This document shows positions 23,160 through 25,776 of a stretch of DNA of 64,000 bases, one piece after another. The stretch covers positions 186,001 to 250,000 of the forward strand of contig NZ_FNWW01000003.1 of NCBI RefSeq assembly GCF_900108515.1, given 5' to 3'. The notes beneath the pieces were generated by a model. It was not told the DNA's origin. It made no database searches and saw nothing but the letters and a program-made list of their open reading frames with translations. The stretch is from Halobacillus karajensis (GTDB taxonomy: Bacteria > Bacillota > Bacilli > Bacillales > Halobacillaceae). The translations under genes were made by a program, and so were the position numbers. Each line of letters opens with the position of its first letter. The stretch's first letter is position 1.

Positions 23160-23192
23160 GTGACAGACTTTTCATCCGGACGGGCTTATACT
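23160..23192 (+). promoter_or_regulatory. Candidate Spo0A-type promoter of spoIIGA with a long spacer
   Basis: GTGACA (23160-23165) and TATACT (23187-23192) are separated by 21 bases. The B. subtilis spoIIG promoter is similarly unusual, with a 22-base spacer, and depends on phosphorylated Spo0A. A 0A-like box TTTCGAA (six of seven) lies at 23062-23068. Transcription should begin near 23199. Confidence 0.45.
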
Positions 23193-23228
23193 TTCAGTAC
23201 AGCAGTTTATAGAGGGAGGGGAGAGAGG

Positions 23229-24140
23229 ATCATTTACCTTGATGCTGTCTGGATGCTCAACCTTTTGATGGATGCCATGATTTTATCGCTTACACAGGGG
23301 ATTACAAGAGCGAAATCATCAAAGTGGAGGATGCTATCCGGAGCATTTGTCGCTTCGACAATTGTGCCAATTACCATCTATATGCCGGATTCATGGCTGG
23401 TTGGGAGTCTTGGCAAAATTATTTTCTCCATGTTTATCATTTGGGTAACTTTTTCGTACACCTCTCTCCGTGCCTTTTTTGTTCAGTGGATTAGCTTTTA
23501 CTTCATCACCTTCACCATCGGTGGAAGCATGATGGGAGTTCATTATTTCCTGGCTACAGAAATCAGCTTACAAGGGGGTTCGGTCGTAACATTTAGTGGA
23601 GGTTATGGAGACCCGGTCAGTTGGTTGTTTGTAATTATAGGATTTCCTTGTTCTTACTTTTTCACAAAGTGGCGGTTGAACCAGGTTAGTGTCCATAAGA
23701 TGAAATTGGAGGACATTTATGATGTGACTGTGGAATGGAATGGTCGTACGGCTCGTTGCAAAGGGCTGGTGGATAGTGGAAACCAACTGATTGATCCAGT
23801 CAGCCGCAAAATGGTGTTTCTCGCTGATTCTTTTGTATGGGCCCACTTTTTTTCAGAAGAACAGCTGGAACAATTGAATGTAGATAATATTATGACAGCG
23901 CTCGGGGATTTGCCTGATGAAGTTCAGTCATCTATTCGACTGGTCCCCTATCAGGCCGCTGGTGTCAGTGGTCAGCTGCTTGTCACCATCCTTGTAGACA
24001 AAATTACGGTCAAAACTGAAAATGGGGACTTAGAAATGAAATCACCGCTTTTAGGTGTGCAGCATCAGGATTTGACACAGGATCGTCTATATCAAATGCT
24101 TATTCATCCACATTTGATGGTAAAAGGGAAAACAGCTTGA
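23229..24140 (+). CDS. spoIIGA: Sporulation sigma-E factor-processing aspartic peptidase SpoIIGA
   Basis: About 303 residues: five N-terminal transmembrane helices (first begins [15 protein letters not shown]) and a C-terminal aspartic-protease-like domain with the catalytic DSG in GLVDSGNQL (Asp about 182). It cleaves the pro-sequence of pro-sigma-E at the septum. Homology starts at IYLD, and a GGGAGGGGAG ribosome-binding site ends six bases before ATC 23229, but no ATG, GTG or TTG lies there. The nearest upstream in-frame GTG (23160) falls in the -35 element, and the first downstream ATG would delete conserved residues. Start given as ATC 23229 provisionally; ATT 23232 is the alternative. 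Confidence 0.85.
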
Positions 24141-24157: not shown

Positions 24158-24877
24158 ATGTTCAGATGGTTCTTTAAGGCGCGGCTGTGGTATTATCGAT
24201 TACTTATGAAACTCGGCATTAAACAAGATGAAATCTATTATATTGGCGGAAGTGAGGCGCTGCCTCCGCCATTGTCGAGAGAAGAAGAGAGAGAATTGCT
24301 TGAGCGTCTTCCTAAAGGGGATAAAGCAGCTCGGGCAATGTTAATTGAGCGTAATTTACGCTTGGTGGTCTATATAGCCCGAAAGTTTGAAAACACAGGG
24401 TTGAATATCGAAGATTTAATCAGTATCGGAACCATCGGGCTGATTAAAGCTGTGAATACGTTTGATCCAGAGAAGAAAATAAAACTGGCAACTTATGCTT
24501 CCCGTTGTATTGAAAATGAAATCCTCATGCACCTTCGAAAAAGCAATAAGCTGAAGACAGAAGTATCTTTTGATGAACCCTTGAACGTCGACTGGGATGG
24601 CAACGAACTTCTTTTGTCTGATATTCTAGGGACGGATGAGGATTTGATTACCAAAGGAATCGAAAAGAAAATTGATAAGAAACTTCTCAAATCAGCCCTT
24701 GAACAGTTGAACGACCGTGAGAAACAAATCATGGAACTGCGTTTCGGATTGATTGGAAAAAAAGAAAAAACACAAAAAGATGTGGCAGACATGATGGGGA
24801 TTTCACAGTCTTATATATCAAGGCTTGAAAAGAAAATCATCCGTCGTTTGCAACGCGAATTCGACAAAATGGTCTAA
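24158..24877 (+). CDS. sigE: RNA polymerase sporulation sigma factor SigE
   Basis: A 239-residue sigma-70 family protein, the first mother-cell sigma factor. The amphipathic pro-sequence (about residues 1-27, [15 protein letters not shown]) keeps it inactive on the membrane until SpoIIGA cuts near [14 protein letters not shown]. Region 2 has [23 protein letters not shown] and [15 protein letters not shown]; region 4 has [31 protein letters not shown] precedes the ATG at 24158. The gene follows spoIIGA by 17 bases, so both share the Spo0A-driven promoter. Confidence 0.97.
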
Positions 24878-24896
24878 CAGACGACAAATTGTGAAT

Positions 24897-24925
24897 GCAT
24901 AATTTTCCCTCCCAGGGAGATACTG
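24897..24925 (+). promoter_or_regulatory. Sigma-F-type promoter of sigG
   Basis: GCATA (24897-24901), 14 bases, then GGAGATACTG (24916-24925), which fits the sigma-F/G -10 consensus GGnnAnAnTR at every position. Transcription should start around 24932. sigG is sigma-F dependent in B. subtilis. Confidence 0.65.
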
Positions 24926-24952
24926 AGGACTGATTACAGCTTCCTGGGAGGG
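24907..24952 (+). promoter_or_regulatory. Hairpin that hides the sigG ribosome-binding site
   Basis: CCCTCCCAGG (24907-24916) is a perfect 10-base complement of 24943-24952; the stem extends to 13 pairs (24907-24919 with 24940-24952, one G-T), with a 20-base loop. The right arm contains the whole GGGAGGG ribosome-binding site of sigG. The left arm overlaps the sigma-F spacer and -10, so only read-through RNA from spoIIGA-sigE should form it. A hairpin dampening sigG translation has, as I recall, been described in B. subtilis. Confidence 0.65.
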
Positions 24953-24959
24953 TCTTACA

Positions 24960-25739
24960 TTGACACGACATAAAGTAGAGATATGCGGCGTAGATACATC
25001 AAAACTTCCGGTACTAAAAAATGCAGAAATGAGAGACCTGTTTGAACGCTTGCAAAGCGGTGAGATTGAGGCAAGGGAACAACTAGTGAATGGCAACCTC
25101 CGCTTAGTCCTGTCGGTCATTCAGCGTTTTAACAACCGTGGTGAATATGGCGATGATTTGTTCCAAGTGGGATGCATCGGCCTTATGAAATCCATCGACA
25201 ATTTTGATTTAAGCCATAATGTGAAATTTTCTACTTACGCTGTACCCATGATCATTGGAGAAATCCGCAGATACCTAAGAGATAATAATCCGATACGAGT
25301 GTCACGTTCTTTAAGAGATACGGCCTATAAGGCTTTGCAAATGCGAGAGAAGATGATCAGTGAAACAAACAAAGATCCAGCTCCACATGAAATTGCGGAA
25401 CGTATGGGAGTCCCGCACGAAGATGTAGTCTTTGCGATGGATGCCATTCAGGATCCTGTGTCGCTTTTTGAGCCTATTTATAATGATGGCGGCGATCCTA
25501 TTTTCGTTGTCGACCAATTGAAGGATGATCGTGAAAAGGATTCTGTCTGGTTAGATGAACTATCGCTGAGAGAAGGAATGAAGAAACTGAACGACCGGGA
25601 AAATATGATTTTGACGAAGCGATTCTTCCAAGGAAAAACGCAAATGGAAGTCGCAGAAGAGATTGGGATCTCTCAGGCTCAAGTGTCCCGGTTAGAAAAA
25701 GCAGCCATTAAAGAAATGAATTCATCGATGTTCCAATAA
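24960..25739 (+). CDS. sigG: RNA polymerase sporulation sigma factor SigG
   Basis: A 259-residue sigma-70 family protein, the late forespore sigma factor. The N-terminus KVEICGVDTSKLPVLKN, region 2 (NLRLVLSVIQRFNNRGEY, HNVKFSTYAVPMIIGEIRRY) and region 4 (KTQMEVAEEIGISQAQVSRLE) are nearly identical to B. subtilis SigG. It starts with TTG, seven bases after GGGAGGG; the rare start and the masking hairpin fit tight translational control. It lies downstream of sigE with its own sigma-F promoter and ends before a terminator. Confidence 0.97.
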   Translation: MTRHKVEICGVDTSKLPVLKNAEMRDLFERLQSGEIEAREQLVNGNLRLVLSVIQRFNNRGEYGDDLFQVGCIGLMKSIDNFDLSHNVKFSTYAVPMIIGEIRRYLRDNNPIRVSRSLRDTAYKALQMREKMISETNKDPAPHEIAERMGVPHEDVVFAMDAIQDPVSLFEPIYNDGGDPIFVVDQLKDDREKDSVWLDELSLREGMKKLNDRENMILTKRFFQGKTQMEVAEEIGISQAQVSRLEKAAIKEMNSSMFQ

Positions 25740-25747
25740 AAGATGAG

Positions 25748-25776
25748 CGCTTCTGCTTTAGCAGGAGCGTTTTTTT
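25748..25776 (+). terminator. Intrinsic terminator of sigG
   Basis: A nine-pair stem (25748-25756 with 25761-25769, one T-G pair), loop TTTA, is followed by seven T residues. Confidence 0.9.

Follow-up and report, generated by a model that had tools for sequence, protein, structure and literature searches.

In Bacillus subtilis, the early transcript that includes sigG is a read-through product and is not translated (PMC2530871). A large hairpin has been proposed to block translation of the RNA that reads through from spoIIG, and this structure is described as one that 'cannot form' in transcripts initiated at the sigG promoter, PsigG (Mearls et al., 2018, PMC5942855). That paper, which credits the idea to Masuda (1988) and Sun (1991), continued in 2018 to describe the large hairpin as proposed; the structure it tested was a small five-pair hairpin, which forms in the PsigG mRNA, has a quoted stability of –6.2 kcal/mol, and damps translation 2–4 fold. 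A related layout is described for gene e and I-TevI of phage T4: a late promoter occupies the DNA that encodes the 5′ side of a stem, and this stem sequesters the ribosome-binding site (RBS) in early read-through RNA (PMC3014915, PMC2988022). The genes and sigma factors are unrelated to those of sigG, and the phage switch distinguishes times, not cell types. A central requirement of spore formation is that sigma-G be excluded from the wrong cell and the wrong time.

The window analyzed here, which is the whole 64,000-nucleotide stretch of Halobacillus karajensis DNA, contains a hairpin of the B. subtilis type: it lies between sigE and sigG, and its stem covers the sigG RBS (Table 1). The gene order on the + strand is spoIIGA, sigE, sigG, with 82 nucleotides separating the sigE stop from the sigG start (locus L082 in our collection). 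We take the first of these ORFs to be spoIIGA from its sequence and the gene order; used as a tblastn query, it found the neighbors of sigE in related loci. The encoded SigG is 98% identical to SigG of Halobacillus litoralis and H. aidingensis. A sigma-F/sigma-G promoter with 14-nucleotide spacing, the spacing reported for 14 of 15 Bacilli (PMC5942855), is predicted from the sequence at sigG, and we placed its transcription start by applying the 30-nucleotide leader of B. subtilis sigG (PMC5942855) to our leader alignment. Gene, place, promoter spacing, and proposed logic are thus those of the large hairpin described for B. subtilis sigG (spoIIIG), with differences in degree: the stem has 13 plus 3 pairs in Halobacillus as opposed to 20 or more in B. 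subtilis (PMC5942855), and the small RBS hairpin is weaker. Because the same mechanism has already been stated for B. subtilis, and so is not new, we regard this locus as an example in Halobacillus of an element already described; the Halobacillus hairpin itself is real and well supported. What appears to be new is the comparative support presented below, namely class-wide conservation of a spacer complementary to the RBS and weakening of the hairpin behind terminators, neither of which we found described in the open-licence papers searched.

Table 1. Features of the spoIIGA–sigE–sigG locus, in window coordinates.
Feature	Position	Strand	Basis and remarks
spoIIGA ORF (pro-sigma-E protease)	23160..24140	+	ORF list; true start probably further in
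sigE CDS, ATG 24158	24158..24877	+	Sequence, ORF; presumed source of read-through into sigG
-35 of sigma-F/sigma-G promoter, GCATA	24897..24901	+	Sequence; aligned in 70 leaders
14-nt promoter spacer with anti-RBS CCCTCCC	24902..24915	+	Sequence, 70-leader alignment
Left arm of read-through hairpin, CCCTCCCAGGGAG	24907..24919	+	Sequence, fold
-10, GGAGATACTG, inside left strand of stem	24916..24925	+	Sequence, fold, 70-leader alignment
Predicted transcription start	24932	+	B. subtilis 30-nt leader applied to leader alignment
Right arm of read-through hairpin, CTTCCTGGGAGGG	24940..24952	+	Sequence, fold
Alternative small RBS hairpin, 24940–24943 with 24948–24951, weak	24940..24951	+	Fold
RBS, GGGAGGG	24946..24952	+	Sequence, fold; fully paired in read-through RNA
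sigG CDS, TTG start 24960	24960..25739	+	ORF
Terminator-like stem 3′ of sigG	25745..25772	+	Terminator scan

In the predicted read-through RNA, the two arms form 13 pairs, one of them G-U, and three further pairs (24923–24925 with 24937–24939) extend the stem beyond the unpaired nucleotides 24920–24922, which places the -10 wholly on the 5′ strand. Folding of positions 24880–25000 gave –34 kcal/mol (z –3.2), a value equaled by 1 of 200 shuffled sequences, and folding of positions 24896–24965 gave –26.6 kcal/mol (z –3.6), which none of 200 equaled. An RNA beginning at the predicted start has no 5′ arm and loses the fold (–6.4 kcal/mol, z +1.7), with the cost of opening the sigG site being 3.8 kcal/mol in this RNA versus 14.5 kcal/mol in the read-through RNA. 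The latter value made sigG the most buried of 216 ORFs possessing an exact 6-nucleotide RBS (next, 11.4; mean, 3.3; sd, 2.3 kcal/mol), which came from 411 ORFs kept in 464 kb, comprising the window and twenty 20-kb stretches of the ~4.07-Mb genome. A search of positions 24500–25300 against 4227 Rfam models returned no match up to an E value of 1, and we accordingly rejected assignment to a known RNA family.

The small hairpin of Mearls et al. (2018) hides the same RBS and involves overlapping leader bases, but it differs from the large one in forming in promoter-initiated RNA rather than only in read-through RNA. Its Halobacillus counterpart is weak, at –2 to –4 kcal/mol as calculated with ViennaRNA (the B. 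subtilis figure is quoted from another program), and shares bases that the long stem needs.

A first-pass annotation of this DNA, made from the sequence alone, had described much of this anatomy. Its coordinates for the 13-pair stem that buries GGGAGGG were exact at every position, and it was correct that the -10 overlaps the left arm, although it did not name the -35. It had placed the start of sigma-F transcripts, which it supposed to lack the left arm, near 24932, where the B. subtilis offset also puts it, and downstream of 24907, whereas an upstream start would have contradicted its reading. The logic it proposed, in which read-through RNA is blocked and promoter RNA is free, is supported here and agrees with the account of B. 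subtilis in Mearls et al. (2018). The leader hairpin that it mentioned for B. subtilis was probably a different structure, the small hairpin of the PsigG mRNA. Its position for the TTG start also held, and this codon does not set the Halobacillus gene apart: among 206 distinct Bacilli leaders, sigG starts with TTG in 86, GTG in 25, and ATG in 95, so TTG is frequent among sigG genes.

We consider a translational insulator embedded in the promoter to be the explanation for the sigG hairpin, with a probability of nearly nine in ten. RNA entering from spoIIGA–sigE would carry the promoter spacer and the -10 merely as sequence, these would pair with the leader and sequester the RBS, and neither early nor mother-cell sigma-G would be made from it. 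Polymerase containing sigma-F or sigma-G would instead start past the left arm, at about 24932, such that the promoter RNA could not form the stem and would be translated. In this analysis the explanation is based on the anatomy, the predicted folds, their conservation, and the weakening of the hairpin where a terminator separates the two genes; for Halobacillus, the existence of read-through RNA, the point at which transcription starts, and the consequence for translation are inferred.

To follow the hairpin across relatives, we took the best 80 of the 570 sigG loci found as one set, which leans to near relatives, and searched further genomes at the level of the order (match in 129 of 130), class (99 of 131), and phylum (130 of 149), using from these searches the loci returned together with regions chosen to cover genera rather than every match. 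This anchored 309 sigG loci, of which 307 were parsed (L286 and L304 gave no start): 254 from Bacilli and 53 from other classes of the phylum. The main counts exclude loci with a leader exceeding 70 nucleotides from -10 to start or with a weak promoter call (21 of the 254 and 19 of the 53, respectively). Among these 21 Bacilli loci, folding was confined to the 13 other than the 8 with a weak promoter call: no more than 2 of 20 shuffles matched the read-through fold in 7 of them, whereas 6 did not reach this level.

Among the 206 distinct Bacilli leaders, the native spacer outperformed at least 29 of 30 shuffled spacers in 166 and missed this threshold in 40, compared with 7 successes in 34 leaders of other classes. 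Mean opening costs in Bacilli were 12.9 kcal/mol for the long RNA, 4.2 for the short RNA, and 6.6 for the long RNA with a shuffled spacer; the corresponding values in the other classes were 5.4, 3.5, and 4.6 kcal/mol. Likewise, the spacer had pyrimidines at five or more of six positions in 192 of the 206 Bacilli leaders versus 9 of the 34 others. We aligned 70 leaders, out of 80 chosen for diversity within the best-80, Halobacillus, and order sets, and at five paired spacer columns, the base facing the near-invariant G's of the RBS was C or U in 62 to 70 of the 70.

Covariation was of little use as proof and was set aside, because RNAalifold retained only seven consensus pairs in this alignment and found a two-sided compensatory change in one of them. 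Such near absence is expected if the RBS hardly varies, and we therefore relied on the shuffles, on C or U opposite G, and on the terminator comparison. The first-pass annotation had treated unconserved arms in relatives as contradicting its reading; arm pairing is kept in most of the Bacilli sampled, whereas the compensatory changes for which it proposed to compare relatives were scarce. Arms from the same leader paired better than mixed arms in 137 of 162 cases (–22.1 versus –19.2 kcal/mol, uncorrected for kinship). Arm swapping proved a weak test: when arms were exchanged between leaders at increasing distance, the ratios of cognate-better to swap-better were 3:4, 15:10 (p=0.21), 21:11 (p=0.055), and 38:23 (p=0.036); the swaps between close relatives (3:4 and 15:10) gave no significant signal, and we rejected them as a test. 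Pairing of the -10 with its complement in the leader was no more than suggestive: in 44 of 162 leaders, at most 1 of 50 shuffles matched the native sequence, and the median rank was 5.

If the hairpin serves to silence read-through RNA, it is expected to be weaker where a terminator already stops read-through. We scanned the interval from sigE to the sigG promoter for intrinsic terminators in the 203 distinct Bacilli leaders with sigE upstream and found them in 28. The SigE tree used for comparison had 202 tips, of which 27 had a terminator; each of these 27 was paired with its nearest terminator-free relative, and the hairpin was weaker behind the terminator in 20 of the 27 pairs (p=0.007). 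For terminators of –15 kcal/mol or stronger, it was weaker in 16 of 18 pairs (mean difference, –4.05 kcal/mol) and in 13 of 15 clades (p=0.004), with none of 400 random label sets of the same size being as extreme (mean, –0.38). The –15 cut-off was set once the list had been viewed; with –12 or –17 in its place, the counts were 18 of 23 and 12 of 13, respectively. The opening cost of the promoter-initiated RNA was unchanged by a terminator (lower in 10 of 18 pairs, p=0.81). Gap length alone was set aside as the cause, in that the drop in 16 genomes with gaps longer than 180 nucleotides and no terminator was smaller and fell short of significance (10 of 16; mean, –2.34; p=0.105). L092 is alone among the 18 Halobacillus genomes parsed from the further searches in having a long sigE–sigG gap (257 nucleotides versus 78–83), and it has both a terminator in that gap and the weakest hairpin (9.9 kcal/mol). 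In L172, the hairpin is lost and no terminator was detected, which, like the 40 Bacilli leaders below the shuffle threshold, counts against the explanation. As judged from sequence, the hairpin appears to occur widely in related spore formers and to be weaker where read-through is already stopped by a terminator, and this weakening, with the promoter RNA unchanged, supports read-through insulation. An old model thereby gains an independent comparative test, one in which hairpin strength drops where a terminator makes the hairpin redundant.

The read-through from spoIIG need not be the only transcription that matters, and three loci bear on this point. In L071, L111, and L163, which represent two lineages (L071 with L163, and L111), sigG remains in place between sigE and ylmC but is inverted relative to sigE (sigE→ ←sigG ylmC→). 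Their hairpins remain strong (15.3, 16.5, and 12.9 kcal/mol, respectively) and the promoter is intact, which counts against insulation, because spoIIG read-through cannot reach these genes in the sense orientation. The hairpin might therefore guard sigG against stray transcription of any origin, given that sigma-G is detrimental to growing cells; its toxicity in vegetative cells and its aberrant activity when misexpressed are reported (PMC5942855), and at the inverted loci the hairpin may also guard against other transcription. However, the inversion is present in only 2 of 10 genomes of the first lineage, and so may be recent enough that the hairpin has had too little time to decay. With those 2 of 10 genomes in one genus and a single relative compared in the other lineage, we set the inverted loci aside as a decisive test. 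The weaker hairpins behind sigE–sigG terminators point to the spoIIG transcript as the main load, although such terminators also stop other upstream transcription. We regard a guard against stray transcription in general, rather than against spoIIG read-through specifically, as a possible alternative, somewhat less likely than not. The sigG gene is also inverted in L331, which is grouped with L163, and in L332, whose leader is identical to that of L071 and which is probably the same species as L071.

Two other explanations would dispense with hiding of the RBS altogether. Because the stem is a long GC-rich duplex, it could act on the RNA itself, as a terminator of read-through or as a substrate of RNase III, an enzyme that can cleave such duplexes. 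This seems quite improbable, in that the paired stretch is centered on the RBS in the 70 aligned leaders, no U-run lies 3′ of the stem, and the terminator scan found nothing there, for which reason we rejected a terminator or attenuator reading of the stem; on the + strand of the locus, the scan found no terminator between sigE and sigG, which favors the insulator, and the first one follows sigG. We give still less credence to the idea that the pyrimidine-rich spacer is kept for promoter function, such as DNA shape or sigma contacts, with pairing to the RBS being incidental. The spacer does lie between two elements whose distance from each other modulates the level of sigG expression (PMC5942855), and few compensatory changes on both sides of the stem are seen, but in the other classes, where sigG has comparable promoter elements, most leaders lack the pyrimidine spacer, the order of nucleotides in the spacer matters beyond their composition, and hairpin strength tracks terminators. 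Moreover, CCCTCC is absent from the seven other sites in this genome that match a loose promoter pattern, although some of the eight matching sites are chance, given that a reversed control yielded four.

Returning to the promoter-embedded insulator, we think it rather probable, on balance, that the sigG spacer of Bacilli is double-coded, functioning as part of a promoter in DNA and as an anti-RBS in RNA, with the RNA function selected by read-through from sigE. Behind a terminator the RNA half would decay while the promoter half stays, and the RNA half would be mostly absent from the other classes, where sigG may be partly expressed from the sigE operon. Such expression has been suggested for Clostridium acetobutylicum, although sigG was also observed there on a transcript of its own (PMC2530871). 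The double role would explain why the spacer of the sigG promoter, an element normally free to vary, is conserved.

Several individual loci had unusual features. In G012, a genome of the window's genus, the best SigG match (E value, 6.7e-70) is a paralogue, probably SigF, the only such case among the 31 genomes searched; sigG seems to be absent from it, possibly reflecting a non-sporulating lineage or an assembly gap. The sigE of L171, a locus with a terminator and a weaker hairpin, matches in three pieces from ~930 to 200 nucleotides upstream of sigG, with offsets that imply frame changes, and is either frameshifted or affected by sequencing errors. Seven loci (L127, L136, L147, L157, L159, L161, and L281) have extra sequence between the -10 and the RBS, with 80–159 nucleotides from -10 to start, and in two of these, L127 and L159, none of 20 spacer shuffles buries the distant site as well as the native spacer still does. 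Outside Bacilli, the sigG site is strongly buried in the read-through RNA of L284, L292, and L310 (13.5–16.9 kcal/mol), which possibly represents independent origins.
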